From: an uncultured Eubacterium sp.
Lineage (GTDB): Bacteria; Bacillota; Clostridia; Lachnospirales; Lachnospiraceae
Length of the DNA stretch: 41,530 nt
Assembly: GCA_945939115.1 (NCBI GenBank)
Contig: CAMEVC010000022.1
Span: forward strand, 1 to 41,530
Direction: 5' to 3'
Shown piece after piece: positions 81 through 15,059 of this stretch (positions are counted from its first letter, which is position 1; every line of letters starts with the position of its first letter). The position numbers were made by a program, and so were the translations under genes. The notes under the pieces were generated by a model. The model was not told the DNA's origin. It did not search any database and worked only from the letters and a program-made list of their open reading frames with translations.

Positions 81-280
81 GTCACAAAGTGGAGCACTTT
101 TCTAAAAGGTGCGTCAAAAAGTGGCGTCATTTTTGAAAAGATGGGTCAAAAAGTGACGCACCTTTTCAAAACGGTAAATTCTCCGGCAAAAAAGGTGAGT
201 CACAAAGTGGAGCACTTTTCAAAAAAAGTGAGTCAAAAAGTGGCGTCATTTTTCAAAAAGGGAGACGAAAGTGACACACC
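76..280. repeat. array of about 32-bp imperfect palindromic repeats (iteron-like)
   Basis: Five near-complete units start at about 76, 108, 140, 194 and 226, and a partial sixth starts at 259. Each unit reads roughly GGTGMGTCAMAAAGTGGMG followed by a T-run and an A-run. The core is an inverted repeat: GTGCGTCA, a 5-nt A-rich spacer, TGACGCAC. Steps are 32, 32, 54 and 32 bp. Thirty-two bp is close to three helical turns and 54 is close to five, so all cores face the same side of the helix. A 22-bp spacer (172-193) interrupts the array. This is what an iteron cluster for a replication initiator, or a set of operators, looks like. It lies about 250 bp upstream of the relaxase. Confidence 0.7.
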
Positions 281-420
281 TGTTGATAGAGGATTTCCGG
301 TTGGTGCGGCATAAAAAATACTTCCCAGAGGGAGCACCAACATATAGCTGTGAATACCGGCTACTGGCAGTAGATTTCACCAAATGCCGGTAGGAGCAGA
401 TGTATCCGAGATCAAGCGAC

Positions 421-475
421 GGAACGCTTGCCCCGTTTGTGTTTGGGGTACCCCCAAACCAATAAGGGGACATTA
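421..475. other. candidate origin of transfer (oriT) hairpin
   Basis: An 8-bp perfect inverted repeat, GTTTGGGG (441-448) and CCCCAAAC (452-459) around TAC, is followed by AATAAGGGGA. It lies about 70 bp upstream of the leader ORF and 130 bp upstream of the relaxase start. Relaxase nick sites commonly sit beside such a hairpin just upstream of the mob gene. I cannot place the nick, and the sequence does not obviously match the classical MobV nick consensus, so the role is inferred from position and structure. Confidence 0.45.
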
Positions 476-528
476 CTTTAGGGGAAGAGAAAGAGACGTG
501 GAAACCCAAAGAAAGGAGGAAGACGACC

Positions 529-594
529 ATGAGCAGAGATTTCTTAAGGAAACTGTTGATTAAACTGAATACAGATAAGAAGAGAGGGATTTGA
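529..594 (+). CDS. 21-codon leader ORF translationally coupled to the relaxase
   Basis: ATG at 529 is preceded by a strong AAAGGAGGA (512-520) at good spacing. The frame encodes a basic peptide beginning MSRDFLRKLL and ending TDKKRGI. Its TGA (592-594) overlaps the ATG at 591 in an ATGA arrangement. The downstream relaxase ORF has no ribosome binding site of comparable quality of its own, so terminating ribosomes may restart there. It could be a coupling leader that holds relaxase level down, or a degenerate small Mob accessory gene. No family was recognised. Confidence 0.5.
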   Translation: MSRDFLRKLLIKLNTDKKRGI

Positions 595-2048
595 TGACAG
601 GCAAGAAAGAAAAGACCATAAGTGGTGCAATGTACAGCGCACCTAATCTGGAGCACAATCTTAGAACGCATATTCCACCCAACTCCGTAGAGGAACGGCG
701 CCATTTAAACTGGGTATATACCAATGATACAGAGATTACTCTGCAACAGGTATATGAGAAGTTATTTGCTAAGCCGTATAAAGAGTGGCGGGATAGGGAG
801 ATTAAGAAAGGGCGCGGAAAAAGATTTCCACCGACCTATTATGAGAAGATTGAGAAGGATAAGCAGAAGCACCTTTGTTATGAGATAATCTGGCAGATAG
901 GGGATATGCGGAACACAGGTTTCATATATACGCCGGATGATGCGCATCGTGCGCAGGATTTGCTGGATGAATTTGCAAAGTATCTGTTGGAACTGCCGGA
1001 GGTATGTGTGGTAACGCAGAAAGAGTTGGATGATCCTAGCTGGAAGCCACCTTTTGAGGCTGGTCTGATTGTTCACCACATGGTTTATCACGGGGATGAG
1101 AATTCTCCCCACATTCATATGACCTATATTCCATACACAACCAACTCCTCAAAGGGAGCACCAATTCAGAATGCATTTGCACAGACTTTCAAGGATTTGG
1201 GGTATCCCACAACCATGAAGCAGGCTGTAACTGAGAGCGGTGATTTAGTCTGGCAAAAAGATGAAGACGGAAATCTGAAACCACAGATGAAGCGTGATCG
1301 TTATGGTGGAGCTGATTGGGTGGAAACACAGAAAGCAATCCTTCAGGATATGATGCTGAAAGAGTTTGGTTGGGAGCGTTTTTATAAAGGCTCCAATCCC
1401 AGAGGAAATCTTCTCTTGTCGGACTACCGTAGGGAGAAAGCGGCGGAGATGGCAAAGGAAGAGGAACGGAAACTTGAGAATATTAAGGATAAGGTTGCAA
1501 CCGGACAGGCTACTATTCAGGCACAGGTTGAGCAGTTGGAGATGATGCTGGAGTCTCTGGATAAGGGAGCAGAGGCAGAGAGGCAGTTGTCAGTCAGAAT
1601 CACGGATAAGAATTCTGAACTGGATGATGTACTGCGGAAACTGGCAGATAAAAGTACCGAGCTGGATGAAGTGAAGCAGGACCTGACGGATAAAAAGAGT
1701 GAGGTTCGGGAGCAGGAGCAGAAGCTAACATTTATCAAGGAAGATGTGGACGAGACGATTCAGAAAGCAAAGTTTGCAGAAGAACTTATCGATTACTTCA
1801 GGAATACTAATTCCGGTGACCGGGAGAAAGCATACTTTGAAAAGATGCTGGACCTTAAATACGAGAATGAATGCTTGAAGCAAGAGAATCAGGAGCTGAA
1901 ATCTGAGAACCGGAGTTTGAGGGCGAAGCTGGAAAAGGCATATGATTTCATGAGGCAGTTTACAATTAACGGAATGAATATGCTGGAGCATTTCCTGCGG
2001 AGTATTGGCGAGTGGGTACAACAGAAGGTGGCTGGAATGAGTAGGTAA
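591..2048 (+). CDS. MobV/Pre-type relaxase (plasmid recombination/mobilization enzyme)
   Basis: The 485-aa protein should nick and covalently bind one DNA strand at oriT to start conjugative mobilization. The N-terminal half has the features of the Mob_Pre family. The metal-binding motif reads HGDENSPHIHMTYIPY (about residues 167-182), which fits HxDE-x2-PHxH. After about residue 285 the protein becomes a long charged heptad-rich coiled coil (about 285-450), also usual for MobV proteins. The start at 591 overlaps the stop of the leader ORF; an internal Met at residue 14 is an alternative. A hairpin terminator follows at once. The gene is more G+C-rich than the defence genes downstream, so it probably belongs to the element backbone. 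No coupling protein is present, so transfer machinery must come from elsewhere. Confidence 0.85.
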   Translation: MMTGKKEKTISGAMYSAPNLEHNLRTHIPPNSVEERRHLNWVYTNDTEITLQQVYEKLFAKPYKEWRDREIKKGRGKRFPPTYYEKIEKDKQKHLCYEIIWQIGDMRNTGFIYTPDDAHRAQDLLDEFAKYLLELPEVCVVTQKELDDPSWKPPFEAGLIVHHMVYHGDENSPHIHMTYIPYTTNSSKGAPIQNAFAQTFKDLGYPTTMKQAVTESGDLVWQKDEDGNLKPQMKRDRYGGADWVETQKAILQDMMLKEFGWERFYKGSNPRGNLLLSDYRREKAAEMAKEEERKLENIKDKVATGQATIQAQVEQLEMMLESLDKGAEAERQLSVRITDKNSELDDVLRKLADKSTELDEVKQDLTDKKSEVREQEQKLTFIKEDVDETIQKAKFAEELIDYFRNTNSGDREKAYFEKMLDLKYENECLKQENQELKSENRSLRAKLEKAYDFMRQFTINGMNMLEHFLRSIGEWVQQKVAGMSR

Positions 2049-2056
2049 AAGGTGGG

Positions 2057-2090
2057 GAAGGAGCGCGAGGGCGCTCCTTCGTCGTTTGTA
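2057..2090 (+). terminator. intrinsic terminator after the relaxase
   Basis: A perfect 10-bp stem, GAAGGAGCGC (2057-2066) and GCGCTCCTTC (2071-2080) with a GAGG loop, starts 8 nt after the relaxase stop. The following U-tract is weak (GTCGTTTG), so termination may be partial. Confidence 0.7.
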
Positions 2091-2166
2091 ATAGTATGTA
2101 TGTTGGATAGGTTGGATATACGTTTCAATGATGATTTTAAAAGAGGTATATGCTTAATGTTTGTGT

Positions 2167-2195
2167 TGATTTTATCAATGAATACATTTATAATA
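2167..2195 (+). promoter_or_regulatory. promoter of the restriction/defence operon with an overlapping operator
   Basis: TTGATT (2167-2172), a 17-bp spacer and TATAAT (2190-2195) make a near-consensus sigma-A promoter. A small palindrome, TTGAT-TTT-ATCAA (2167-2179), covers the -35 box and is a natural target for the HTH protein encoded just downstream. Transcription would start near 2202, only about 16 nt before the ATG, with AGGAGG at 2206-2211. Confidence 0.75.
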
Positions 2196-2217
2196 TTAGT
2201 GTTAGGAGGATAGCTAT

Positions 2218-2427
2218 ATGACGATATCTGAACAAATTAAAATCTTGTGTGTTAGATGTAATATGAGTGAGGCTGAACTGGCACGTAGATTGGGTAAATC
2301 TCCACAAAGTTTTAATGCAAAGATGAAGAGAGAGAGCTTTACCATTGATGATTTAAACGAAATTGCAGAAGCGGTTGGGGTAGAGTTTAAAAGAAATTTT
2401 ATTTTAACGAATGGAGAAGAAATATAA
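2218..2427 (+). CDS. small XRE-family HTH protein, probable controller of the R-M operon
   Basis: The 69-aa protein is almost entirely one helix-turn-helix domain. SEAELARRLGKSPQSFNAKM (about residues 18-37) is the classical HTH, followed by a fourth helix with NEIAEAVGVEF. Start ATG 2218 has AGGAGG 6 nt upstream. The stop TAA overlaps the ATG of the methyltransferase (TAATG). In many R-M systems a small XRE protein of this size (C protein) represses its own promoter and times nuclease expression after entry into a new host. The palindrome on the -35 box agrees with that role. I saw no classical C-box, so it may be a plain autorepressor. Confidence 0.75.
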   Translation: MTISEQIKILCVRCNMSEAELARRLGKSPQSFNAKMKRESFTIDDLNEIAEAVGVEFKRNFILTNGEEI

Positions 2428-3503
2428 TGAAGTCGAAAGTGATCAAGGAATTTAGACTAGGAGAATTGTTTTGTGGTCCGGGGGGACTTGCTTATGCAGC
2501 AATTAATTCCCAGATAGAAGATTCAGAGTATCGAATTATTCATAAGTGGGCAAACGATTACGATTTAGATACCTGTAAAACATATACTAGAAATATTTGT
2601 CCTTCTGAGCCTGATTCGGTGATTTGTGGAGATGTACGTAAATTGGATATAGAACCGTTGGGAGATATTGATGCGTTAGCCTTTGGATTTCCATGCAATG
2701 ATTTTTCGGTTGTAGGCGAGCAAAAGGGATTTAATGGAACATTTGGACCGTTGTATTCATATGGGATAAAGGTATTAAAACGATATAAACCATTATGGTT
2801 TTTGGCGGAAAATGTAGGTGGATTAAAAAGTGCAAATGAAGGTAAGGCATTTGAAAAAATCAAAAAGGATATGATTGAAGCAGGATATAGAATATATCCT
2901 AACTTATATAAATTTGAGCAATATGGTGTACCGCAGGCACGGCATAGAATGATTATTGTGGGCATTAGGGCAGATTTACCATATGAATTTAAAATACCTA
3001 GCCCTGAACCATATAAAAATGTAGATGTAACTTGTAAAACGGCATTAGAAGTACCCAAGATACCTCAAAATGCAATGAATAATGAATTAACAAAGCAATC
3101 ACAACAGGTTGTAGAAAGGTTAAAATATATTAAGCCGGGACAGAATGCATTTACGGCTGATATTCCTGAAGAATTGCAGTTGAAGGTTAAGGGAGCCAAA
3201 ATTAGTCAGATATATAAACGATTGGATCCAACAAAACCTGCATATACAGTAACTGGCTCTGGCGGTGGGGGAACACATATTTATCACTATGCGGAACCAA
3301 GAGCATTAACAAACAGGGAAAGAGCAAGATTACAGACTTTTCCTGATGATTATGTTTTTGAAGGAAGCAAGGAATCTGTAAGAAAACAAATAGGTATGGC
3401 TGTTCCTCAAAAAGGAGCTAGAGTAATTTTTGAAGCAATTCTGAAAACATTTGCAGGAATTCCATATGAGAGTATTGAAGCATATACAGGGAATGATGAT
3501 TAG
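2427..3503 (+). CDS. DNA (cytosine-5-)-methyltransferase of a type II R-M system
   Basis: The 358-aa protein shows the ordered motifs of C5 methyltransferases. Motif I is ELFCGPGGLA (about 13-22). Motif IV is GFPCNDFS with catalytic Cys90. Motif VI is AENVGG (Glu128), motif VIII is VPQARHRMI (about 168-176), and motif X near the C-terminus has QIGMAVP in place of the usual GNAVP. It transfers a methyl group from AdoMet to C5 of cytosine in the recognition site and so protects host DNA from the nuclease encoded 10 bp downstream. A single m5C enzyme can protect both strands only if the site is symmetric, so a palindromic site is likely. Recognition cannot be read from sequence. Confidence 0.92.
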   Translation: MKSKVIKEFRLGELFCGPGGLAYAAINSQIEDSEYRIIHKWANDYDLDTCKTYTRNICPSEPDSVICGDVRKLDIEPLGDIDALAFGFPCNDFSVVGEQKGFNGTFGPLYSYGIKVLKRYKPLWFLAENVGGLKSANEGKAFEKIKKDMIEAGYRIYPNLYKFEQYGVPQARHRMIIVGIRADLPYEFKIPSPEPYKNVDVTCKTALEVPKIPQNAMNNELTKQSQQVVERLKYIKPGQNAFTADIPEELQLKVKGAKISQIYKRLDPTKPAYTVTGSGGGGTHIYHYAEPRALTNRERARLQTFPDDYVFEGSKESVRKQIGMAVPQKGARVIFEAILKTFAGIPYESIEAYTGNDD

Positions 3504-3513
3504 AGGTGATTGA

Positions 3514-5040
3514 ATGCAAGATTATTGGTGGGTTACACGTCCGAAAAGAAAACTTAATCCTATCCCAGAGGAGTTGGCGGCTTTTTGCAGTACAGCTCTT
3601 GGAAAAAAATGGACGAGGAATAGAGATTCTCACATTGAGTTTGAAGTGGAACTGGAACAGACAGGAACAAAACGTGTTGGAGAACGTCGGGATGCCTCTG
3701 GTTCTGGTGGAAGAACCCATGCGGCTATGTTATATAGTTTGGGATTATGGTTTGAAAAGAATGACACTGTGTTTTTAACTCTTGCAGGTGAGGCAATTAT
3801 GGAAGGAAAATCACCTGTTCCAGTTTTGAAGAAACAGGTGTTGAGGTTTCAGTATCCTTCCGCATATTCAGCCTCTGTGAAAGTGGCTCCCCGTTTTAAA
3901 ATCCGACCATTTTATTTCTTGTTGAAATTACTTTTGGATGAAAGATTATTAATATTGTCACAAAGAGAAATTGCTCTGATTGTTGCAATTCAAGCCGAAA
4001 ATGAATCTGATAAGTGCTATAATGAAGTTGTTGAAAGAATATTACAGTACCGTTCGTATGGGGATGAAATATTTGAAAGCGACTATTTAGAAAAGCATAA
4101 TGCGTCAGAAGGTAATTTGATGGATGTGGCTAATACGATGATGAATTGGCTCGATTATACACAACTTGTATATCGTGAAAAAGGAATAATCGGAATACCA
4201 GATGAAAAACGAGGAGAGGTTGAAGGATTAGTAGCAAATATACCATCATTTATACAGTATCCTGTAGAAAATGATGTGTATCAAAGAAAATATGGGGTTG
4301 ACCCATGGCATCAAAAGGACACGAGGAATCTTTTAAATACAACGGCTATTTCAAGCAAAGTAATAGATAGAAATAGAATTCTGCGTGCGTTTTTTAATTA
4401 TTCATCTTTAAGGCCCGTTAGTAGAATTGATTCGGAAGTAGTAGATTATATTTGCAACATATCGGGCACAGACCCTCGATTTACCGAGAGTGTTCTAATC
4501 GAAACGTATCCACATGGTGCTGTGGGTGGATATTTGAGCCATTATCGTGATATGGCTTTTCAGGGCAGAGATGAAGCTGTAGATTTTGAAAAAGCAACAA
4601 CCAGTTTGTTTCAAGATATATTTGGGTATGAGGCAATTCATTTGGGACAGACTGGGTCAAAATCAGCACCAGATGTTCTGCTGATTTCAGATGCAGAGGG
4701 CTATCAGGCAATTATAGATAATAAAGCTTACAGCAAATACAGTATTAGTGGAGACCATCATAATAGAATGGTACATAATTACTTAGAGAATATCAGTAAT
4801 TATAGTTCATGCAAACATCCGATAGGGTATTTTACATATATAAGTGGAGGATTTGTGCCGCACATAGATAGACAGATTATGGATGAAGTAAACGCTTCGG
4901 GTGTTCATGGTTCTGGTATAACAGTTTCAAACCTAATTATGCTTATTGAAGACCATATGGAGAATCCATATTCTCATGCAGAGTTGCGTAAGATATTTGG
5001 ATTGGATAGGCAGATTATGTTGTCGGATATACATCATTAA
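3514..5040 (+). CDS. AlwI-family type II restriction endonuclease
   Basis: The 508-aa protein begins MQDYWWVTRPKRKLNPIPEE. This matches the start of the AlwI/BstNBI/PleI/Bsp6I nuclease family (tryptophan-rich strand, then an arginine-rich turn and IPEEL). VLKKQVLRFQYPS (about 110-122) and the following RPFYFLLKLLLD helix also agree with the family. A PD-(D/E)xK site is visible near the C-terminus: Pro386-Asp387 in SAPDVLL, and Asp402-Asn403-Lys404 in IIDNKAYSKY. Here D-x-K replaces the more common E-x-K. Start ATG 3514 has GAGGTG upstream, 10 bp after the methyltransferase stop. The pairing with a lone m5C methyltransferase recalls Bsp6I (GCNGC) more than the type IIS members, but the target is unknown. 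Confidence 0.8.
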   Translation: MQDYWWVTRPKRKLNPIPEELAAFCSTALGKKWTRNRDSHIEFEVELEQTGTKRVGERRDASGSGGRTHAAMLYSLGLWFEKNDTVFLTLAGEAIMEGKSPVPVLKKQVLRFQYPSAYSASVKVAPRFKIRPFYFLLKLLLDERLLILSQREIALIVAIQAENESDKCYNEVVERILQYRSYGDEIFESDYLEKHNASEGNLMDVANTMMNWLDYTQLVYREKGIIGIPDEKRGEVEGLVANIPSFIQYPVENDVYQRKYGVDPWHQKDTRNLLNTTAISSKVIDRNRILRAFFNYSSLRPVSRIDSEVVDYICNISGTDPRFTESVLIETYPHGAVGGYLSHYRDMAFQGRDEAVDFEKATTSLFQDIFGYEAIHLGQTGSKSAPDVLLISDAEGYQAIIDNKAYSKYSISGDHHNRMVHNYLENISNYSSCKHPIGYFTYISGGFVPHIDRQIMDEVNASGVHGSGITVSNLIMLIEDHMENPYSHAELRKIFGLDRQIMLSDIHH

Positions 5041-5077
5041 TGAATGTAAATATAGAGATATGAACGGAGAATAAGGA

Positions 5078-7249
5078 ATGAGCGAACCAAAGAGAACAGG
5101 GTTATTACAATTATTAGGAAATAGTTTAGGTTGTCAATTTGTAATTCCGGTGTATCAAAGAAATTACACATGGGCGGCAGAACGAGAAGTTAAGCAATAT
5201 TTTGATGATTTACAGAGTGTTTTAAAAGGTGATTATAAAAATCATTTTATGGGAATTATAATTTATCTTGAAAAAGCCATTGACTTTAGTTCAAGGGAGT
5301 TTTCTATCATTGATGGTCAGCAAAGATTAACGACTACATTTTTGATTATATATGCCATAAAGCAAATGCTGGTTAATTGCAATGATACTGAAAAGGTAAA
5401 GCAGTTGGAGGGGCAATATCTGACGAATCCATATCATAATGATAAAATAAAATATAAGCTCAAACCCTTGGTGTCAGATGATGATGTGTATAGATGTATT
5501 GTAGAAGATAGGATGGGTGATATCACAGATAAAGAATCAAATGTTTTGAAAAATTATCAGTATATTGGCAATCGTTTAAACGAGCTGTTATTACAAGGTT
5601 ATGATGCGAATGCTATATTAATGGCACTAGACAAATTATATGTGGTATGTGTTCCTATTTCAGAGGAAGATAATGCTCAAAAAATATTCGAAAGCATAAA
5701 TGCGACAGGCGTAAAACTTACATCAGCAGACCTGATTAGAAATTATCTTCTGATGGATTTGCAAAGTGATGTGCAGGAAAAATATTATGCAGATTATTGG
5801 AAGAAGCTTGAAGATAATGTATCCGCAGATTCTAAGACCTTAGAATTGTTCTTCAGAATGTATTTAGCTATAAAAACATATAATTTGGTTCCTAAAAACA
5901 ATGTTTATAGAGAATTCGTAAAATGGATTGAGGAACATGATACAAATATAAAGGTTTTGTTTGAAGATCTATTGGAATATGCAAAAATATTTAATCTGCT
6001 TATGAATGAGGATATAAATAAGATTGATAAAGAACTCAAAGATGCAATTGTTGATTTTAGAAAAGTGAATTCAGATTTACCGATGGCAATTGTTATGGAG
6101 TTCTATAGAATATATCGTAAAGGTTGTATTACTATTGATGTTTTAGGAATGCTAATATGCGCTATCAATACATATATGATTCGTAGAAGTTTATGTGATA
6201 TGAATTCACAAAATATTTCTAAACTATTTCCTACGGTGTTAAAGAAGGTGCTGGATAAGTGTAATGATGATTATACAGATGTACTAAGACATTTGAATCA
6301 GGAAATGGTGGGAAATATGGCATCTACAAGTGGTAGCTATATGCCAACAGATAAACAGATGATGGAAATGTTGTATAATGCTAATGTTTACAAGAGACCG
6401 GCGCTTAGAATTGTATTGGATAGATTGGAGTTACATAATAATCCGGCTCCGGTTGATTTGAGTCATTTAAGTATAGAGCATCTGATGCCACAGACACCTA
6501 CGGAAGAATGGTTGGAAGAATTGGATACAGATATGGAAACATATTTGGAAAACCTACACAGAATAGGAAATCTTACTCTTGCCGCAAAGAAGGACAATAG
6601 TAAAATGGGGAATCTTATGTGGGATTACAAGAATGAAGTGTTAAAAGAAACTGCTCATTTAAAATTGAATCTTCAACTAATGGAAATTGATAAATGGGAT
6701 ATGGCAAGAATTGATAGCAGAACCAAGGAACTGATTGAAAAAATATGTGTTATTTATCCGTATCCAGAGGTGAGTGTTACTCAGAAAATAGATGACAGCG
6801 TTGTTGATGAAATGACAGCACTTGATTTGTGTGTTGAAATGGCCATTGATGAACAACCGATAACCTGTATTAGAAAAAGAAGAACTTTCAAAACGGAGGA
6901 TAATAAAAAAGGATATACCATTGTGTCTTCCAAAATGTATCCTCAAGGGGATAAGGAAAAATATTGGTTTGGATATCGTGATAAACGATTTGAGGATATT
7001 GAAGCTTGTGATGAACAGTATATGATTTTGGGATGTAGAAACAAAACCCTTTCGGTTGTCAGATTCCCAAGAGCATTTATTGAGCAGAACCTGAGTATGC
7101 TAAATTCTTCCGTGGATAGTGAAACAGGCGAAATATCTCATTATCATATTGTCATTTTCAAAAATCCAGACGGAAAAATGACAATGCTTCTTTCAAAACC
7201 GGTATTACGGGAAATAGATATTTCGGAATATGTGATTGGTGAGATATAG
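5078..7249 (+). CDS. GmrSD-like DUF262/DUF1524 protein (modification-dependent nuclease)
   Basis: The 723-aa protein carries an N-terminal DUF262 domain with IPVYQRNYTW (about 23-32) and the NTP-binding motif IIDGQQRLTT (about 77-86). A DUF1524 HNH-type nuclease follows, with EHLMPQ (Glu467-His468) and HRIGNLTL (His494, Asn498). This is the single-chain layout of GmrSD/BrxU type IV enzymes, which cut phage DNA carrying modified (often glucosylated) cytosine. About 150 residues after the nuclease domain form an extra β-rich C-terminal region (after about residue 575) that I do not recognise; it may read the DNA modification. The gene follows the nuclease gene by 37 bp in the same operon. It would complement the classical R-M pair by acting on modified phage genomes. 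Confidence 0.82.
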   Translation: MSEPKRTGLLQLLGNSLGCQFVIPVYQRNYTWAAEREVKQYFDDLQSVLKGDYKNHFMGIIIYLEKAIDFSSREFSIIDGQQRLTTTFLIIYAIKQMLVNCNDTEKVKQLEGQYLTNPYHNDKIKYKLKPLVSDDDVYRCIVEDRMGDITDKESNVLKNYQYIGNRLNELLLQGYDANAILMALDKLYVVCVPISEEDNAQKIFESINATGVKLTSADLIRNYLLMDLQSDVQEKYYADYWKKLEDNVSADSKTLELFFRMYLAIKTYNLVPKNNVYREFVKWIEEHDTNIKVLFEDLLEYAKIFNLLMNEDINKIDKELKDAIVDFRKVNSDLPMAIVMEFYRIYRKGCITIDVLGMLICAINTYMIRRSLCDMNSQNISKLFPTVLKKVLDKCNDDYTDVLRHLNQEMVGNMASTSGSYMPTDKQMMEMLYNANVYKRPALRIVLDRLELHNNPAPVDLSHLSIEHLMPQTPTEEWLEELDTDMETYLENLHRIGNLTLAAKKDNSKMGNLMWDYKNEVLKETAHLKLNLQLMEIDKWDMARIDSRTKELIEKICVIYPYPEVSVTQKIDDSVVDEMTALDLCVEMAIDEQPITCIRKRRTFKTEDNKKGYTIVSSKMYPQGDKEKYWFGYRDKRFEDIEACDEQYMILGCRNKTLSVVRFPRAFIEQNLSMLNSSVDSETGEISHYHIVIFKNPDGKMTMLLSKPVLREIDISEYVIGEI

Positions 7250-7276
7250 GGTGTAACTAGAAAAGAGGTGTTTTGG

Positions 7277-8119
7277 GTGCCCATTATTACAAAAAAAGAA
7301 GAAGGATTATTTTTGCTTCTGTATAACCGTAATGGTTATGTGTTAGATTTTACTAATAATACATTTGATGTATTTACTACAGCAAGTGTAGGAGAAGCTT
7401 TGCAGACAAAATATGGGTTGTCAAAAGGTAAATCATTGGTTACTTATCTTAATGAAGCCTCTGATGCAGATAGAACAAAGTTACTTTTGGATTTATTTCA
7501 TCATTATGAAGATGAGATGGAATATGAGTATAATCCCGACTATGAAGATTTTCTATGGCCTGGAAATTCGAGATATGATGAAAAATATGCAAAGATATAT
7601 TTAAGATGCAAGGAAATTATTGACAGACTAGATGGCGGTACCGTTGCTATAGCAAAGACAGCTGAAACTTTAAAATCAAAATTTTCTAGTGAGTATTTGT
7701 CGAAGCAGATTGATTTAATGGTACAAATGCAGACAGAAAATCCAACTAACGCCATAGGAATGGCAAAAGAGCTAATTGAAAGTTGCTGTAAAACTATATT
7801 GGATGAAATGGGTGTAACTTATTCTAAAGATGACGATGTTCCACAACTGGCAGGTAAAACAATGGATGTACTCAATCTGCTTCCGGCGAATGTACAGCCT
7901 ACAGACAGAGGAGCCGATGCAATCAAGGCGGTGTTGGGAAGTTTAAGAGCTATTCCAACAAAGCTTGCTGAGATTAGAAATCCCTTTGGGAGTGGTCATG
8001 GTAAGAGTGCTTCGTTCCAGGGACTTGAAGTAAGACATGCAAAATTGGCTGTTGGAAGCAGTATCACGTTTGTAGATTTCATTTGGAACACCTACGAAAG
8101 CTCTAAAACTGTAAAGTAG
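7277..8119 (+). CDS. abortive-infection protein with C-terminal Abi_C (HEPN) domain
   Basis: The protein has about 280 aa. The C-terminal half matches the Abi_C domain: AKELIESCCKTILDEMG (about 160-176), a VLGSLRAIPTKLAEIRN helix, then GSGHGKS and the RHAKLAVGSS helix. Arg234-x6-His241 fits the HEPN ribonuclease motif, so host or phage RNA cleavage on infection is plausible. The N-terminal 130 residues are unassigned and acidic (HHYEDEMEYEYNPDYEDF). GTG 7277 is preferred over GTG 7268 because AAGAGGTG (7263-7270) then lies 6 nt upstream. It sits 27 bp after the GmrSD-like gene and 14 bp before the next gene. Trigger and target are unknown. Confidence 0.78.
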   Translation: MPIITKKEEGLFLLLYNRNGYVLDFTNNTFDVFTTASVGEALQTKYGLSKGKSLVTYLNEASDADRTKLLLDLFHHYEDEMEYEYNPDYEDFLWPGNSRYDEKYAKIYLRCKEIIDRLDGGTVAIAKTAETLKSKFSSEYLSKQIDLMVQMQTENPTNAIGMAKELIESCCKTILDEMGVTYSKDDDVPQLAGKTMDVLNLLPANVQPTDRGADAIKAVLGSLRAIPTKLAEIRNPFGSGHGKSASFQGLEVRHAKLAVGSSITFVDFIWNTYESSKTVK

Positions 8120-8133
8120 GAAAGGATAAAGAA

Positions 8134-9570
8134 GTGGATAAAATTGAATTATCAAAACACATAAAACAAGGTGATACATTTTATACGCCTTATACGGATC
8201 CAAATGGATTAGGAGCAACATTATCCATTTCCAGTTGGGCCAACTGCTGGTTACCAGAATTTCTCTGGATAGGATTGATTGTCAAAAAACAAGGAAGAAA
8301 AAAAGGCCTTGAAAGTTTATATCATATCATTGAAGATTTAAAGCGCGATGACATGGCAATTCCACAGCTTTCAAAAATTTTCGAACTATCCGGGGAACAA
8401 CAAAAAAAGTATTGGTCAATAGTAACACGGTATGTAGAGGGAAATATATTGTTGCCTTTAACCGTGGTAATTACGCCAGATATAAATGAAACATTTTATG
8501 ATTTCTTTTTTGATTTTTCTATGAGTGTTGATGATAATATTTCAGAACTTTTAGATATCGCCAAGGAAACTAATAGATTTCATGATGAGTTGAGCACCGA
8601 TATATGTTTTATAGTTGATTGGTTTTATGTACTGAAGGGTAAACTGCATATTTCTAGCGAAATAGATATACTTCCTACTGCGTTATCTGAGTATTACAAA
8701 CACAATCATAAAGATGAAGTTATGAGAGCGTATAGACCTATTATCAGATCGACCTTTCAAGGTTTGTGCAATTTAGATTGCAGTAAAGAGTTTTCTGAGA
8801 GAATATGGAAAGTGTTGGGAAAGATTTCGGAATGTAATCCTTTGGTAATAGTATGGGATGAGGAAGCGTCAATGGACTTTTACAAAATTGCAAATCAAAC
8901 AATTGAATATTTCTCTGCTAACAACGAAGATAAGAAGATGGAAAGTAAATATGCCGTAATTATGGGGATGACTTGTTATATTTATAAAATATATCAAGAA
9001 ATTGTGGAAAAACAGATGCAAAACGGTATTGCAGGAAGAATACTGTTTAGAACAATGTTGGAGACATACATCAATTTAAAATATATGATGCAGCAGGAAA
9101 GTGAAGTGTCAGATATTTATGAAAGGTTTAAAGCATATGGTAATGGTAAGTATAAATTAGTAATGGCAAAGTTACGAGAGGAAAAATATACTGTTTCAGA
9201 CGATTCACAGATTGATGAAAAAATAATGGAATTAATAGTGAATGAGGATATGGATGAAGCTTTTGTCAATATGAGTGTTGGTTATTTTGATAAAACAGGT
9301 GTTAGAACGAAATTTCATAAGTGTGGAGAAGATGAACTATACGAAATTTATTATGAATACGCCACCAATTATGCACATGGAATTTGGGGTGCAATTAGAG
9401 AATCATCCATGTTAATTTGTGATAACCCAGCACATACATATCATTGTGTTCCAGATTATCATATGGACCAGAATTTACGTAGCGTACTTGGTGATTGCGA
9501 AATGGTTATGAAGAAAACTTTTGATGCCATTGCGGCTTATATTGAGCTCCCGGATTTTTATACCATATAG
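8134..9570 (+). CDS. DUF5677-domain protein of the defence operon
   Basis: The 478-aa protein has a C-terminal half (about 275-470) that resembles DUF5677. It contains GRILFRTMLETYINLKYMM (about 298-316), then YERFKAYGNGKYKL, and later YEYATNYAHGIWGAIRES (about 410-427), a helical arrangement reminiscent of HEPN proteins. NYAHG supplies a conserved histidine. The N-terminal 250 residues, rich in aromatic and acidic residues, are unassigned. DUF5677 proteins are often found near phage-defence genes, but their biochemistry is not settled. Start GTG 8134 follows AGGAAAGGA (8118-8126). Only 14 bp separate it from the Abi_C gene, so the two may work as a pair. No membrane segment is visible. Confidence 0.65.
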   Translation: MDKIELSKHIKQGDTFYTPYTDPNGLGATLSISSWANCWLPEFLWIGLIVKKQGRKKGLESLYHIIEDLKRDDMAIPQLSKIFELSGEQQKKYWSIVTRYVEGNILLPLTVVITPDINETFYDFFFDFSMSVDDNISELLDIAKETNRFHDELSTDICFIVDWFYVLKGKLHISSEIDILPTALSEYYKHNHKDEVMRAYRPIIRSTFQGLCNLDCSKEFSERIWKVLGKISECNPLVIVWDEEASMDFYKIANQTIEYFSANNEDKKMESKYAVIMGMTCYIYKIYQEIVEKQMQNGIAGRILFRTMLETYINLKYMMQQESEVSDIYERFKAYGNGKYKLVMAKLREEKYTVSDDSQIDEKIMELIVNEDMDEAFVNMSVGYFDKTGVRTKFHKCGEDELYEIYYEYATNYAHGIWGAIRESSMLICDNPAHTYHCVPDYHMDQNLRSVLGDCEMVMKKTFDAIAAYIELPDFYTI

Positions 9571-9593
9571 TTGAATTTAAAGGGGGAACATTG

Positions 9594-10664
9594 ATGGTTG
9601 AGTTAAAGCCTGTAAAGCGAATTATGAATGATTATAGGGTTTTGCTTGAGAGATATGAAGCAAATTTAGCAAATTTTTCTATTGCAGATTATAAAAGATT
9701 AATTGGCGATGTAAAAATGTTTTGGTACCGAAACCGAAAAAGTATAGACTATTTTATATCTCATATTACAGAAGATGATAAAGTGGCTTTTCTTGCAGGA
9801 GCAGTTCGTCTAGATATTGTGAGTAATGGACATTATGAATATGTTTTGGTGGGGGAAATCAGACTGATTAATGAACCGTTGTTAAAAATGGCTACGTTCT
9901 ATAAAGGTGCAGAAGATGAAATTAATTTTGAGTATACAAATAGATATGTGAAGGAATGTATTCAAGATGTATTGCTTTTGCTTAGAGAGTATACTGATGA
10001 TTTTTATATTTTACCAATAGAATATATTACAGTTAATGACGGAGATGAGTATCATTCAGTATTATCCAAAGCGGCTGATAATATGATTCTTTCAATGTTT
10101 TCGACAGAATATAATAGTATTAAGGATTTTTATGCAAATAACAAGACGTATGAAGATATTGAAAATAATTTATTGCCACAGATAAGAGAGCAGTTAGTAT
10201 TTGATGGGCTGGAAGATGTTAAGATGCCATTAAGAGATAGGTGTACTAATTATTTAAAATCTAATGGTCATATTATGCCTATTATGAAAAATATGAATGA
10301 AGCACAGTTGTTTTATTTACTCGTAGTGCAGTTTTGTATGCAGGCGATAGGAATTGTAATGACTATGGATGTACATCATATGATTCCATTTATTAGAAAC
10401 GATGTTGTTTTTCAGTATTTTACTATGCTTTCTCAGTCGAGTTTATCAAGCGAATTTACAGAACAAAAATATTTGAATACATATATTTCTTATGTTGTTC
10501 AGAAGGCTTTCGATTTTTCGGATAAGGAATATAGTTTTGTTAAGACACATATGGGAAATGGAAAGATGATTGAGGCGATTATTAATTCGATTGAAGAAGG
10601 AAGACTTCCACTCCCGGGAGAAATTGTGAAGTATGTTGAAAGTTATATGAACTCTATCGAGTGA
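9594..10664 (+). CDS. unrecognised 356-aa protein of the defence operon
   Basis: I do not recognise a family. The protein looks soluble and mostly helical. Residues about 1-70 are basic and helical, with the run WYRNRKS. A β-rich stretch (about 75-120, HYEYVLVGEIRLINEPLL) follows. A central region with LLPQIREQL and QLFYLLVVQFCMQAIGIVM (about 240-260) could form a hydrophobic helix pair or one membrane-associated helix. Start ATG 9594 has AAGGGGG upstream at good spacing; TTG 9591 is less likely. It follows the DUF5677 gene by 23 bp and precedes the HTH gene by 14 bp, so it is probably co-transcribed and part of the same module. It may be an effector or sensor, but nothing in the sequence proves it. 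Confidence 0.6.
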   Translation: MVELKPVKRIMNDYRVLLERYEANLANFSIADYKRLIGDVKMFWYRNRKSIDYFISHITEDDKVAFLAGAVRLDIVSNGHYEYVLVGEIRLINEPLLKMATFYKGAEDEINFEYTNRYVKECIQDVLLLLREYTDDFYILPIEYITVNDGDEYHSVLSKAADNMILSMFSTEYNSIKDFYANNKTYEDIENNLLPQIREQLVFDGLEDVKMPLRDRCTNYLKSNGHIMPIMKNMNEAQLFYLLVVQFCMQAIGIVMTMDVHHMIPFIRNDVVFQYFTMLSQSSLSSEFTEQKYLNTYISYVVQKAFDFSDKEYSFVKTHMGNGKMIEAIINSIEEGRLPLPGEIVKYVESYMNSIE

Positions 10665-10678
10665 AAGGAGATTATCTC

Positions 10679-10993
10679 ATGTACAAACCCATTGACCAAC
10701 AACGAACCGGACAAAAACTAAAAATCATGTTCAAACTGGCAGGCTACGATGTAAAGTACATCCAAGAGTACTTGAATCTCTCCTGTCCTCAGCCGATTTA
10801 TCGTTGGTTTAAAGGTCAGAATCTGCCAACGGTAGAGAAACTTTATGCCCTAAGTATTCTCCTTGGTGTGCATATGGAAGAACTGCTGGTTTTGCAGGGA
10901 CAGCCTATGAATATAGGCTTGTATAAGGTGGCGCAGGAGTCGAAGGACAAGCGTCTTTTATATTACGCTCAATGCTTGCAAAGGGTAGCATAA
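10679..10993 (+). CDS. XRE-family HTH regulator
   Basis: The 104-aa protein begins MYKPIDQQRTGQKLKIMFKL and has an HTH of the form VKYIQEYLNLSCPQPIYRWF followed by KLYALSILLGVHMEELL. AAAGGAG (10664-10670) lies 8 nt before ATG 10679, which decides this start over the in-frame GTG at 10661. Its base composition is more G+C-rich than the preceding defence genes and closer to the relaxase. Such XRE proteins are common backbone regulators of Lachnospiraceae mobile elements, so it may mark the right edge of the defence cargo. It could also be the last gene of the operon and repress it. Confidence 0.75.
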   Translation: MYKPIDQQRTGQKLKIMFKLAGYDVKYIQEYLNLSCPQPIYRWFKGQNLPTVEKLYALSILLGVHMEELLVLQGQPMNIGLYKVAQESKDKRLLYYAQCLQRVA

Positions 10994-11036
10994 GTGTTTT
11001 GGACTATCCGTCCAATGACAAAGACTTGACTTTGAG

Positions 11037-11090
11037 ATATCCTTTTATCAGGACCTCTGAATGGGTTCTGGTAAGAGGATATTTTTATTT
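11037..11090 (+). terminator. strong intrinsic terminator at the end of the defence operon
   Basis: A 19-bp stem pairs 11037-11055 with 11064-11082. Sixteen positions are Watson-Crick and the other three are G·U pairs in the RNA. An 8-nt loop closes it and ATTTTTATTT follows. That all three imperfections are wobble pairs supports an RNA hairpin on the plus strand. It separates the 2218-10993 operon from the next gene. Confidence 0.85.
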
Positions 11091-11107
11091 GGGAGAGGAG
11101 GATTGTC

Positions 11108-11671
11108 ATGGGAACCAATTATTATTTTATGAGCAGGAATAAGGAACTGATGCAGACTTATTTTGCTGAGAAGTCGGAGTGGGGTGTGCTTGGCGAGGAG
11201 TATACCATCGTGGATGAGCCATATCTTGGTTATCGGTGTCACCTGAATAAATTAAGTTGCGGATGGCGGCCCTTGTTTCAGAAACATAGAGTGTTTGATA
11301 GTTTTCGGAAGCTGGAGGCGTTTTATCGGGAGCATCAGGCGGATTTGGAGATTTATGATGAATATAGGAGGCAGTATTCGTGGGAAGAATATCTTGAGAC
11401 GGTTTACGAACATAGCCGGTGTCATCCGGAACCGGTGAAGTGGGTGCATGAAGTAAACCCTATGTCTCCGGATAAGAAGCCCCACCTGCGAACGGTGGGA
11501 TGCAGTGAAGAGGAGGCGGAGCTTTATAGTCCTTTTAATCATATAGAGTATGAAAAGACGCTGCAGAAAGCAAGGCAGAAATTCGGTGTGCATGAGCGAG
11601 AGTATGGGGATATAAAGTATTGGAATGATCCGGAATATTTGTTTGATTGGACGGAAGGGGAGTTTATGTAG
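11108..11671 (+). CDS. hypothetical protein of mobile elements (MGTNYY start)
   Basis: The 187-aa protein begins MGTNYYFMSRNKELMQTYF. Small proteins with an MGTNYY start are frequent hypothetical proteins of phages and integrative elements, but no function is established. The protein is acidic and rich in aromatic residues (many Tyr and Trp) and has no membrane segment. ATG 11108 follows GGGAGAGGAGG at good spacing. It lies alone between the defence-operon terminator and the AbiE operators. Composition matches the relaxase and the 10679 HTH gene, so I take it as element backbone. Confidence 0.6.
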   Translation: MGTNYYFMSRNKELMQTYFAEKSEWGVLGEEYTIVDEPYLGYRCHLNKLSCGWRPLFQKHRVFDSFRKLEAFYREHQADLEIYDEYRRQYSWEEYLETVYEHSRCHPEPVKWVHEVNPMSPDKKPHLRTVGCSEEEAELYSPFNHIEYEKTLQKARQKFGVHEREYGDIKYWNDPEYLFDWTEGEFM

Positions 11672-11737
11672 GTATAAAGCAAGCAAAAGAATAACAAGTG
11701 TCAATTCCGCAAACACTATAGCATAAATGCAGATTTA

Positions 11738-11861
11738 AGTAAAAGTACACACGAAAACGGATGGTGTGTATTTTTACTAAAATATTTGTTGACGAAGTAT
11801 CTGTGTAATGCTAAAATTTAAGTAAAGATACACACAAACTATAATTGTGTGTATAAACGCT
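11738..11861 (+). promoter_or_regulatory. abiE promoter with two long palindromic operators
   Basis: TTGACG (11789-11794), a 17-bp spacer and TAAAAT (11812-11817) form the promoter. Two operators flank it with the same geometry, 15-bp arms around 11 nt. One pairs 11738-11752 (AGTAAAAGTACACAC) with 11764-11778, 14 of 15 matching. The other pairs 11821-11835 with 11847-11861, about 10 of 15 matching, and covers the start of transcription. AbiEi antitoxins are known to repress their own promoter by binding inverted repeats, so these are the likely sites. Confidence 0.75.
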
Positions 11862-11880
11862 TAAATGGAGTTGGTGGATT

Positions 11881-12423
11881 ATGGTTTTGACATATAAGCA
11901 ATGTATAGAGAAATATGGTAGCGACCATATGTTGAAAAAAGAAATAGCGGAAGGGAATCTTTTTCAAAAGGAGAAGGGCATTTATTCCTTAAACAGAACT
12001 TGTTCTGAGCTGGAGATTATCAGTGCGAAATATCCGAAGGCTGTATTTACCGGTGAGAGTGCTTTTTATTATCATGGATTAACGGATGTGATTCCTGATT
12101 TTTATCATTTGGCAACCGTCAGAACCGATGGCAGAATTAAGGATGAACGGGTGAAGCAGACATTTTTGAAAGAGGATATTTTTGATATGGGACAGGTTAA
12201 GATATCATATCATAACACGGAAATATGCATTTACAACTTGGAAAGAATGCTGATTGAGCTTGTGAGATTCCGCGGTAAATTACCATTTGATTATTACAAG
12301 GAGATTATTGGATCGTACAGGAATCGTGTGGAGACTATGGATATTGCAAAGGTAGAAGAGTACGCAGCCAAGTTTAAGCATTCGGATAAAATGATGCAGG
12401 TTATTGAGTTGGAGGTGTTGTAA
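11881..12423 (+). CDS. abiEi: AbiEi antitoxin/repressor of a type IV toxin-antitoxin system
   Basis: The 180-aa protein has the AbiEi layout. An N-terminal winged-helix region contains KKEIAEGNLFQKEKGIYSL (about 20-38). The antitoxin domain follows, with YPKAVFTGESAFYYHGLTD (about 51-69) and later NLERMLIELVRFRGKLPFDYY. The family neutralises the AbiEii nucleotidyltransferase without binding it and represses the operon. Its TAA overlaps the ATG of the toxin gene (TAATG), as expected for coupled antitoxin/toxin production. Two palindromic operators lie directly upstream. I am confident of the family because the partner gene also matches. Confidence 0.87.
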   Translation: MVLTYKQCIEKYGSDHMLKKEIAEGNLFQKEKGIYSLNRTCSELEIISAKYPKAVFTGESAFYYHGLTDVIPDFYHLATVRTDGRIKDERVKQTFLKEDIFDMGQVKISYHNTEICIYNLERMLIELVRFRGKLPFDYYKEIIGSYRNRVETMDIAKVEEYAAKFKHSDKMMQVIELEVL

Positions 12424-13220
12424 TGAACTTGCTGGATGAAGTAGATAAAATAAAAAAAGACGGATACAGCGAAGCAAATGCAGAAGCAAAGCTGTGTCAG
12501 GATATTATTATAAAGGCAATTTCGCAGAGTAGTCTGAATAGAAATGTCACCATTAAAGGTGGTGTAGTTATGCGTAGCCTGTCCAAGAATGCAAGACGTG
12601 CCACGCAGGATTTAGACTTGGATTTCATTCGATTTTCCATATCGGAAGAATCTATAGGTATATTTATTGAAAAGCTGAATTGTATAGATGGGATTCGATT
12701 GCGGATGTCAGCACCCATAGAGGAATTAAAACATCAGGATTATAAAGGCAAGCGTATTCATATTGAGATATCCGATGATTTCGACAATGTACTTTCGTTG
12801 AAAATGGATATTGGTGTACATAAGGACTTGGATATTGAACAGGAAGAGTATTGTTTTGATGTGTGTTTTCAAGAGGATTCTGCCAGTGTGTTAATCAATT
12901 CATGCGAGCAGATGATTACTGAAAAATTAAAATCTTTGATGCGTTTCGGAATCCGGTCTACCAGATATAAGGATGTATTTGATATCTGCTATTTGTCTGA
13001 TTTGGCAGATATGGAGAAGCTTAGATTCTGCATACAGAAGTACATATATGCTGACACTACAATTGATGTAAGTGATGCGGATGAAATTCGAAGAAGAGCA
13101 GAAAGGATTTTTACCAGCAGTACATACAAAAAGCAGGTGGAGCGCTCCAAGAAGAATTGGCTTGATATATCAGTGGACGAGGTGCTGAAGAAGGATTTGG
13201 AGTTCCTTTATACAATATAG
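12423..13220 (+). CDS. abiEii: AbiEii nucleotidyltransferase toxin
   Basis: The 265-aa protein carries the AbiEii/AbiGii nucleotidyltransferase signature. Lys45-Gly46-Gly47 (IKGGVVMRSL) is followed by RRATQDLDLDF, with Asp63, Asp65 and Asp67 as likely metal ligands. A later helix reads TRYKDVFDICYLSDL, typical of the family. Related toxins transfer nucleotides, in studied cases to tRNA acceptor ends, and stop growth during phage infection. The gene overlaps abiEi by one base. The catalytic residues look intact, so the toxin should be active if expressed. Confidence 0.87.
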   Translation: MNLLDEVDKIKKDGYSEANAEAKLCQDIIIKAISQSSLNRNVTIKGGVVMRSLSKNARRATQDLDLDFIRFSISEESIGIFIEKLNCIDGIRLRMSAPIEELKHQDYKGKRIHIEISDDFDNVLSLKMDIGVHKDLDIEQEEYCFDVCFQEDSASVLINSCEQMITEKLKSLMRFGIRSTRYKDVFDICYLSDLADMEKLRFCIQKYIYADTTIDVSDADEIRRRAERIFTSSTYKKQVERSKKNWLDISVDEVLKKDLEFLYTI

Positions 13221-13237
13221 CGAAAGGGGAATCAGTA

Positions 13238-13820
13238 ATGCTATACAAATATATAAAGGATCATTATAAACAAGCGGAGCCCATTTTTCTTTCTGATTTG
13301 TTAAGAATGAATATTACCGAGCCGGATATAAAACAACAACTGAAAGAACTCTGTGAAAAAGGTTTGTTGCAACAATACGATGAAGAAGTATATTTCATTC
13401 CCAAGAAGTCAAAATTAAACCTCGCTGTTGGTCCGAATGCAGACATGGTGGCAAGATATCGTTTCATTTCCAAAGGGGATAATGTAGATGGTTTCTATGC
13501 AGGTTCCTTATGTGATTGAGATTGTAAGCAACAATGTTTTAGATGATGGAGAAGTTCTGATTGGAAACAGAAGATTTGATGTAAGAAAGCCGGTTGTACC
13601 GATAACAAAAGAGAATGTGCATGTATTGCAGATGCTGGATCTGTTGGTAAAGCCTAATGCATAACTTGATTGTAGTTATGAAGAGGCTAGAGAGAAATTG
13701 GCGGAGTACATATCTGTTTGTGGAATTGCAAAGAGTGATGTGGAGTTATATATCAAGGAATATCCTAAGTCTACGCTTAAATATTATTATGAATTAGGAT
13801 TAGACCATGTACTTGTCTAA
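13238..13820 (+). pseudogene. decayed DUF6088/AbiEi-like antitoxin gene
   Basis: The first 93 codons (MLYKYIKDHYKQAEPIFL onward) read like the start of DUF6088 proteins: a winged-helix domain, YFIPKKSKL, then DGFYAG. After FYAG the frame breaks. The next frame continues as MQVPYVIEIVSNN, in which QVP...EIVSNN fits the domain after GLTTQ. The break falls on TATGCAGGT (13496-13504), which reads FYAG in one frame and MQV in the other, so a short internal segment was probably lost between two small direct repeats. A second lesion is an in-frame TAA at 13662-13664. Beyond it the same frame stays open (LDCSYEEAREKLAEYI) to 13820. It may be the leftover antitoxin of a second, lost AbiE-type pair. 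Confidence 0.75.
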
Positions 13821-13878
13821 TATTTTTCTACCCCAAAAGATATAAGATGGGGTAGAAAAATAAGTGGTGGGGTAGAAA
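13821..13878. repeat. perfect 15-bp palindrome plus a third half-site upstream of an RNA promoter
   Basis: TATTTTTCTACCCCA (13821-13835) and its exact reverse complement (13848-13862) are separated by 12 bp. A third copy of TGGGGTAGAAA lies at 13868-13878. The last copy ends 4 bp before the -35 box at 13883. The hairpin has no U-tract, so I favour a protein-binding site over a terminator, although it could also stop readthrough from the pseudogene. Confidence 0.6.
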
Positions 13879-13882
13879 GTAG

Positions 13883-13911
13883 TTGACGCAACTTCATAAT
13901 TGCCATATTAT
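13883..13911 (+). promoter_or_regulatory. promoter of the predicted 210-nt RNA
   Basis: TTGACG (13883-13888), exactly 17 bp, then TATTAT (13906-13911): five of six matches at each box. The -35 is identical to that of abiEi. Start of transcription is expected near 13918. No credible coding ORF follows before the terminator at 14098-14128. Confidence 0.65.
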
Positions 13912-13917
13912 TATCTG

Positions 13918-14128
13918 CAGAGAGGTCTCCATTAACCTTATGGTTCCGAGCCATAGAAGAGATGAACATTAAAGAAAACATTATGTAATAGATTGGGCTG
14001 GTCGAAAGACCCGGGTCCATCAGCAGATGGGGAGGTTCCCCATCAATACTACATAATATGTTTGGAATTGCGGCGGACGTCTGCGGACTATGCCTAAGGG
14101 AGTTGGATGCGTCCGGCTTCCTTTTTTT
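13918..14128 (+). ncRNA. predicted structured small RNA of about 210 nt
   Basis: The segment has a near-consensus promoter at its 5' end and a strong intrinsic terminator at its 3' end, and no ORF longer than about 10 codons. Inside are stable hairpins. GGTC-GAAA-GACC (14000-14011) has a GNRA tetraloop. CCATC-AGCA-GATGG (14017-14030) competes with GATGGGG-AGGTT-CCCCATC (14026-14044), since both use 14026-14030. A near-palindrome, GCGGACGTCTGC, lies around 14073-14084. No known RNA family was recognised; it is not a tRNA, T-box, 6S or RNase P RNA by eye. It may be a regulatory RNA of the mobile element or a remnant of one. Decisive evidence would be RNA-seq coverage between these ends. Confidence 0.55.
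14098..14128 (+). terminator. intrinsic terminator of the predicted RNA
   Basis: GGGAGTTGGA (14098-14107) pairs with TCCGGCTTCC (14112-14121) in ten consecutive base pairs (three are G·U), closed by a TGCG tetraloop and followed by seven T residues. Confidence 0.85.
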
Positions 14129-14137
14129 AATGCTTTG

Positions 14138-14178
14138 ACTAAAGGTACACACAAGAACAACCTGTGTGTACTTTTACT
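14138..14178. promoter_or_regulatory. third AbiE-type palindromic operator
   Basis: ACTAAAGGTACACAC (14138-14152) and GTGTGTACTTTTACT (14164-14178) are inverted copies (13 of 15) around 11 nt. Arm length, spacer length and core (GTACACAC/GTGTGTA) equal those of the two operators at 11738-11861, but no gene starts nearby. It may titrate AbiEi, or be left from a second abiE-like promoter. Confidence 0.65.
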
Positions 14179-14189
14179 TTAGCTGTATC

Positions 14190-14552
14190 ATACCCCTCTC
14201 CCCGTCCATTTTCGGTTCGACCACCTACCCTCAAATAAGCCGTGATACATCTGCAAAATAGTCCCTTGTTCGACCACCTACCTACTAATCAACGAAGGTC
14301 GAACGAATTTCCAAAAGAATCATTTTACATTCCGGTTCGCCCATGCTACAATATCCCCAGGTGGACGAAAACGGTGTCGCTCGGGCGCGGACAAAAGGGG
14401 CGTGATACACATAGTGTTTCCCCGAAAACGTGATACGAATCCGATACACTTCCCCCGGAAAAAGGCTAAATAATAGGTAAAATACCCATAAAATGAGTCA
14501 GAAAACGGCAAAATCCGTAACAAATAAGTTTCTAAATACGACCAAATCAGAC
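14190..14552. repeat. non-coding right end of the element with short direct repeats (putative recombinase arm sites)
   Basis: I see no gene in this stretch. GTTCGACCACCTACC occurs twice in direct orientation (14215-14229 and 14268-14282, 53 bp apart), with related inverted pieces GGTCGAAC (near 14297) and AGGTGGACGA (near 14359). A second motif, CGTGATAC, occurs at 14241, 14401 and 14429, with a GATACA variant near 14443. The repeats lie within 340 bp of the tuf-tail junction, where arm-type binding sites of a tyrosine integrase or excisionase sites are expected. They could also be iterons of a replicon. Confidence 0.55.
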
Positions 14553-14606
14553 CGTGAGGGTGGACGTACAGTAGGTTCAGGTGCCGTTGCTACAATCATC
14601 GAGTAA
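14553..14606 (+). pseudogene. tuf: displaced 3' end of tuf (EF-Tu), probable attR of the element
   Basis: The frame CGT GAG GGT GGA... encodes REGGRTVGSGAVATIIE and a TAA at 14604-14606. This is the C-terminus of bacterial elongation factor Tu. The sequence before 14553 (AAATCAGAC) does not encode the residues that normally precede it (FAI), so only the last 17 codons are present and there is no start. Integrases that target gene 3' ends leave such a tail on one side and restore the gene on the other. I infer integration into tuf, with the complete copy left of this window and the tail as the attachment core. The window does not show attL. Confidence 0.82.
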
Positions 14607-14619
14607 ACGCGTACTAAGA

Positions 14620-14743
14620 GTACAGTGCGAGAATAAATATAAAAGACCTCAGTGCGAGCTTGCTCGTAACTGGGGTCTTTTGTATTTATTCTCATAGAGC
14701 GCGATAGCGCGTAGAGACTGACGAAGTCAGGCTCGCACTGTAC
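14620..14743. repeat. cloverleaf-like palindromic element A downstream of tuf
   Basis: A perfect 12-bp outer stem, GTACAGTGCGAG (14620-14631) and CTCGCACTGTAC (14732-14743), encloses three hairpins. The first (14629-14693) has an 11-bp base stem, then 12 of 13 paired positions (14641-14653 with 14669-14681) and a CGAGC/GCTCG tip. The second is GCGC-GATA-GCGC (14699-14710). The third is CTGAC-GAA-GTCAG (14718-14730). The first hairpin, with AAAAGACC and GGTCTTTT arms, could double as the tuf transcription terminator. Its 3' two thirds recur at 14907-15014. Confidence 0.75.
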
Positions 14744-14754
14744 GAAAGCAATGA

Positions 14755-14887
14755 GATAAGCGCCAGTTAAGGCGATAATAATAGGGACTCCAAGTTTGCT
14801 TGGAAGTCCCTATTTTATTGCCTTTGCGGGCATTTAACGAATGCCCGCGACCGAGGAAATGCGAAGCATTTTCGAGGTGCGCTTATC
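14755..14887. repeat. cloverleaf-like palindromic element B
   Basis: The outer stem GATAAGCGC (14755-14763) and GCGCTTATC (14879-14887) again encloses three hairpins. The first, long one pairs 14769-14789 with 14805-14824 (one gap, one mismatch) and has a CCAAG/CTTGG tip. The second is a perfect 9-bp hairpin, GCGGGCATT/AATGCCCGC (14826-14848). The third pairs AAATGC with GCATTT around GAA (about 14857-14871). The sequence differs from element A but the architecture is the same: outer stem, one long and two short hairpins. Confidence 0.7.
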
Positions 14888-14906
14888 GGAGTGTGGGGAT
14901 TAAGGT

Positions 14907-15014
14907 GCGAGCATGCTTGTAACTGAGGTCTTTTGTATTTATTCTCATAGAGCGCGATAGCGCGTAGAGACTGACGAAGTCAGGCTCGCACTGTACGAAA
15001 GCAATGAGATAAGC
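14907..15014. repeat. partial direct copy (A') of element A
   Basis: This segment repeats 14654-14761 at a 253-bp offset with only about four differences. It lacks the left arm of the outer stem and the left half of the long hairpin. A-B-A' looks like a tandem A-B duplication that later lost its end. Confidence 0.85.
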
Positions 15015-15059
15015 CCCTGGAAGAGAATTCTTATATTATTATTCATTACTAGTGTTTTT

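Follow-up and report, generated by a model that had tools for sequence, protein, structure and literature searches.

Tyrosine-integrase elements that insert into the 3' ends of rplL, rpsI, rpmG, lysS, guaA and rpmE are described among the streptococcal ICEs and integrative and mobilizable elements (IMEs) in the accessible parts of two studies (PMC4701971, PMC5357655). The elements considered here resemble those in that a conserved essential gene is targeted at its 3' end, the product is kept or little changed and the tail of the gene forms a direct repeat; further likenesses are tandem accretion, a size of about 10 kb and, in some, MobV relaxases (PMC4701971, PMC5357655). They differ in their target, which is tuf, and in their hosts, which are mostly Lachnospiraceae. 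Integrases of the Tn916/Tn1549 type share the Arm-DNA-bind_4, SAM-like and catalytic domains with the integrases of the sister elements described below, and the solved proteins 6emy, 6emz and 6en0, which we take to be Tn1549 Int, matched the latter at 52–54 bits. According to PMC4701971, Tn916 has little target specificity and lacks direct repeats, whereas a single site is used by the tuf elements, with a tuf tail left behind.

A literature search, with most subscription papers and all supplements beyond its reach, turned up no paper in which tuf serves as an integration site. The word tuf was absent from the main texts, as far as accessible, of PMC4701971, PMC5357655, PMC9092696, PMC6907783, PMC5704250 and PMC12884075, and "elongation factor" from those of the first two. 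As tyrosine-integrase elements at 3' gene ends are known and no tuf report was found, the element is of a known kind and its target may be undescribed.

The window analyzed here (41,530 nucleotides) is the entire contig C22 of G000, the genome of an uncultured Eubacterium sp. of the Lachnospiraceae; other genomes (G), contigs (C) and loci (L) are given by our own handles. We conclude, with a probability of about 0.92, that an orphan tuf tail in the window is the attR of a tyrosine-integrase element, probably an IME, inserted in the 3' end of tuf. The features are as follows.

1–14552, no strand: right part of the integrated element, unlike G015 5' of 14553; left end and expected integrase beyond the contig start.
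591–2048, plus strand: MobV/Mob_Pre-like relaxase gene, by comparison with the L104 and L095 genes.
2427–5040, plus strand: predicted type II restriction-modification, C5 methyltransferase (2427–3503) and endonuclease (3514–5040), by Pfam and PADLOC (MTase_II, REase_II).
5078–7249, plus strand: GmrSD-type protein (PADLOC Orf5/HEC-06), by Pfam and PADLOC.
7268–8119, plus strand: AbiJ-like protein with an Abi_C domain, by Pfam and PADLOC.
8134–10664, plus strand: DitA (8134–9570) and DitB (9591–10664), by PADLOC (E 3.7e-180 and 4.7e-109).
11881–13220, plus strand: AbiEi (11881–12423) and AbiEii (12423–13220), by PADLOC.
14242–14437, plus strand: candidate integrase arm sites GTGATACR at 14242, 14402 and 14430, a repeated motif.
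14553–14606, plus strand: orphan tuf tail, attR, the original chromosomal tuf end, by 100% identity to the complete tuf end and flank of G015.
14553–14563, plus strand: CGTGAGGGTGG, the most likely crossover stretch, from the shared right-end boundary and the G307 attL/attR comparison.
14607–14700, plus strand: native tuf 3' flank on the chromosome side of the insertion, 100% identical to the DNA directly 3' of the complete tuf of G015.

Positions 14553–14606 encode the C-terminus of EF-Tu in frame (REGGRTVGSGAVATIIE and a stop; 17 codons plus the stop). The frame is open for merely 24 codons 5' of 14553 and these are not EF-Tu, which confirmed the isolated tail behind unrelated DNA described by the initial annotation. 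A 20-base piece of the tail occurred once in the window against 0.00 expected (100 shuffles, ≤3 mismatches).

The search for an empty site compared 61 genomes, 33 of which had a match, and revealed in G015 a complete tuf end and 3' flank identical to window positions 14552–14700 (100% over 149 bases). In G015 the tuf frame stays open over 381 codons 5' of the tail; the two sequences are 20–23% alike 5' of base 14553 and identical 3' of it. Thus a relative lacking the element has tuf running straight into 14607 and onward, as the initial annotation had proposed for an insertion into the tuf 3' end, and the junction carries both marks of such an insertion, a relative with an empty site and a gene-end repeat. 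Downstream gene order was also the same: 14 window ORFs 3' of the tail were compared, and the 10 lying inside the fetched G015 stretch all matched at 93.8–100% protein identity (one was cut by the edge of the stretch and three lay outside it). G012 likewise had a full tuf followed by a flank 94% similar to that of the window. The window tail shares its letters and its flank with the empty site and is thus the original tuf end of the chromosome.

Several RNA elements were found on the chromosome side. A Clostridiales-1 RNA (RF01699) match lies just 3' of the tail at 14623–14740 (51.2 bits, cut-off 48), and a second, weaker one (34.9 bits) at 14757–14885; the matches fall inside a duplication (14652–14764 and 14905–15017, 96% identical), and the G015 flank also reaches here. 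Further downstream of the insertion, an S10-Clostridia ribosomal leader precedes the S10 operon (36951–37042).

The remainder of tuf sits in an assembly gap of G000, since contig C2, which carries fusA, stops 11 codons into tuf. EF-Tu domain 3 had no match in the G000 assembly at E ≤ 0.001, and no tuf body, attL or integrase belonging to the window element was found in it. The replacement tuf end of the window element would sit at its opposite (left) end, which is missing from the assembly. The initial annotation expected, to the left of the contig, a full tuf ending in the same codons and close to an integrase; this was seen in relatives (L104, L101, L239; a full tuf at 54 of 77 loci) and not in G000 itself.

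A second orphan tuf tail, intact and with a 3' flank differing from that of the window, is present in G000 on contig C46 (L043; about 4199–4252, minus strand), behind a window-type right end. Its flank contains a terminator-like hairpin followed by EAL/GGDEF, phosphatase and C39-like genes (assigned by reading). C46 may thus be another piece of a tandem array of the same insertion type, with more elements between tuf and the window element, a reading that we put a little short of even odds. Arrays do occur in L238, L239, L201 and the complete genome G276, whose single contig C1 (3.37 Mb) carries three tails and two integrases in succession, and C46 has both the related right end and the intact tail. 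Against this, the phosphatase and C39-like genes lie directly 3' of tuf in G002, G011 and G019 (65–73% DNA identity), so that C46 could be a second tuf locus, and every tuf body is missing from the G000 assembly. The G015 matches to these two genes were on contigs other than that of tuf.

The part of the element that lies in the window (1–14552) had no conjugation genes among its named ORFs and probably belongs to an IME. The product of 591–2048 had no Pfam match at E ≤ 0.001; it was 31% identical to the L104 Mob_Pre protein across 204 aa, and the gene was 93% identical in DNA to its L095 equivalent, whose product reaches Mob_Pre at E 0.044. The row of genes behind it likely consists of predicted phage-defence systems. 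Two further observations concern the right side of the element. The whole stretch 13238–13815 was 70% identical in DNA to an ORF of 218 aa in L095; the window ORF ends at 13519 (93 aa) and is apparently a shortened copy. A DUF3800-XI RNA (RF02975, 62.6 bits) lies at 13994–14041, close to the right end; among 13 related loci scanned it was present in L097 alone, on the opposite strand.

The full structure was observed in relatives, in the general order tuf, terminator, HTH gene, tyrosine integrase, relaxase, cargo and orphan tail. L104 of G307, about 9 kb, consists of tuf, an HTH gene (on the opposite strand, assigned by reading), integrase, AAA protein, Mob_Pre relaxase, cargo and orphan tail. 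Sisters of the window element are L095 (G346), with a 370-aa tyrosine integrase followed by the relaxase gene, a window-type right end and a tuf tail, and L238 (G318), whose integrase is 97% identical to that of L095 and lies 1,297 bases 3' of an orphan tuf tail. The integrases of the sister elements have Phage_integrase, SAM_3 and Arm-DNA-bind_4 domains. The start of the window aligns about 130–160 bases 3' of the L095 and L238 integrase frames, which places the missing integrase immediately left of the window; it would be of the L095/L238 type. In L095 itself, the integrase lies about 130 bases ahead of the position that corresponds to window base 3. A screen of viral contigs for the L095 integrase together with the window relaxase gave pattern matches and no relatives.

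The initial annotation had favoured a tyrosine over a serine recombinase on account of the long coding core. The choice of recombinase agrees with the tyrosine integrases of the sister elements; the core, though, does not coincide with the long coding repeat. There was no evidence for a serine recombinase.

The element might alternatively be integrated yet immobile, a defence island whose integrase is lost or broken, and we consider this unlikely though far from negligible. Relatives with damaged or missing integrases exist: the frame is interrupted in L102 (G203, about 12.6 kb), shortened in L052 (G026, about 4.6 kb) and was not seen by motif screen in L103 (G069). The integrases found in G000 were distant, the best being 47% identical to that of L095. 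However, the contig ends right where the integrase reading would start, and the sister elements have open integrase frames. We infer that the window element still excises and that its relaxase mobilizes it.

In three element types, the right ends of one type were alike up to the base before CGTGA, with divergence inside or 3' of the tail, and right ends of unrelated elements break off at that base too. This shared boundary base and the empty site, together with integrases 3' of tuf in many genomes, make it highly improbable that the tail was left behind by homologous recombination or by duplication of part of tuf, even though EF-Tu copies are known to recombine and the accessible part of PMC3478194 describes plasmid integration by homologous recombination beside EF-Tu and proposes this origin for genomic islands there; we rejected it.

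For site-specific insertion, the left end was informative in relatives. The attL regions of G203 and G026, which belong to different genera, were 77–85% alike 5' of the tail and 97–100% alike from the first tail base into the element. Left ends near-identical across genera with differing tuf bodies show that the element supplies a replacement end. The replacement end proposed by the initial annotation thus exists in relatives, as an imported attL tail and terminator, and the tail in the window itself is the original end of the host. A terminator-like hairpin was found within 110 bases 3' of all 53 full tails (a raw count; native tuf is expected to have one too).

The attL and attR tails of G307 first differ at base 12, which puts the exchange within about the first 11 tail bases. 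The actual overlap may be shorter than 11 bases, given that the tails of the window and of C46 differ as early as base 6. The remainder of the coding repeat stays similar, presumably since EF-Tu has to retain its C-terminal end. Candidate arm sites were seen near the ends: four of the 15 RTGATACR matches of the window fall within 14100–14552 (that at 14184 on the minus strand), and among window-type ends the motif was present at the left in L238 and L095 and at the right in the window, C46, L095, L096 and L097, all as raw counts. L104 has paired CGGTGCCAA repeats at both ends, also candidate arm sites.

A mechanism can be proposed on these grounds. The circular form would carry the final codons of EF-Tu with a stop, followed by a terminator, and the integrase would recombine CGTGARGGTGG, the first bases of this copy, with its counterpart in the host tuf. 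That gene would then read into the element-borne tail and terminator, so that EF-Tu stays complete, and the tail of the host gene itself would end up at the far end, in the window at 14553–14606.

To define how general the arrangement is, the genome contigs of a named collection were scanned with an integrase alignment (A2); the scan yielded 242 relatives, and 77 distinct loci were kept. A tuf tail lay upstream, on the same strand and within 10 kb, in 65 of the 77, with a full tuf in 54; four loci had a tail downstream only (L174, L193, L203, L211). No tail was found in eight, seven of which had less than 2.5 kb of upstream sequence and one (L164) 10 kb. A second method found 53 full and 45 orphan tails, intact in 53/53 and 44/45 cases in a search that favours intact copies. 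In a midpoint-rooted tree of 90 integrases, whose rows were picked by similarity, 88 were split at 100/99 from two relatives that adjoin guaA instead of tuf; 74 of the 88 had tuf upstream, six had it downstream only, seven were on short contigs and one had none. The lineage, which we call tuf-specific, sits 3' of tuf on the same strand at 65 of the 77 loci. The two guaA-adjacent integrases, L107 (G196, assigned by motif) and L243 (G000 C4, assigned by ORF reading), are of the same type and about 47% identical to that of L095. In L243 (C4, 8142–11232) the integrase and the guaA-like ORF converge, with about 155 bases between their ends.

Among the named hosts that have a tuf tail are Blautia wexlerae, B. 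glucerasea, B. caecimuris, B. schinkii, Fusicatenibacter saccharivorans, Parablautia muri, Velocimicrobium porci and Eubacterium plexicaudatum. In a sample of 397 genomes of the family of the window, the tail pattern was present in 312 and, by a count made by eye, at least twice in 49, some of which may have true second tuf genes. Window-type right ends numbered at least nine others among the matches listed, with two candidates scored per genome. Five of those listed had an intact tail (G346 C189, G346 C218 by a short match, G265 C3, G000 C46, G114 C15). In G088 the last tail codons diverge and the stop comes later, in G130 C8 the first tail codon is changed, in G130 C51 the contig ends before the tail, and in G256 no tuf tail followed the right end.

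The attL and attR tails differed in protein in 9 of the 24 loci having both, which may reflect import or the decay or drift of the orphan copy. From these differences it can be speculated, as a long shot, that a tuf-dedicated lineage repeatedly rewrites the tuf end, replacing the last codons, stop and terminator, and that the element may adjust EF-Tu output or the C-terminus in its own favour, with defence genes building up in arrays 3' of tuf.

The tuf gene is essential and strongly expressed. It is therefore a bold landing site, and one from which it can be seen how exactly an element has to restore the gene that it enters. Related elements in many gut bacteria land in tuf and supply a replacement gene end; such insertions may explain assembly breaks at tuf, and the lineage provides naturally occurring integrases for a conserved target in gut anaerobes. 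Since it recurs in the Lachnospiraceae, forms arrays and here carries defence genes, the 3' end of tuf makes a predictable target when searching for mobile defence genes.
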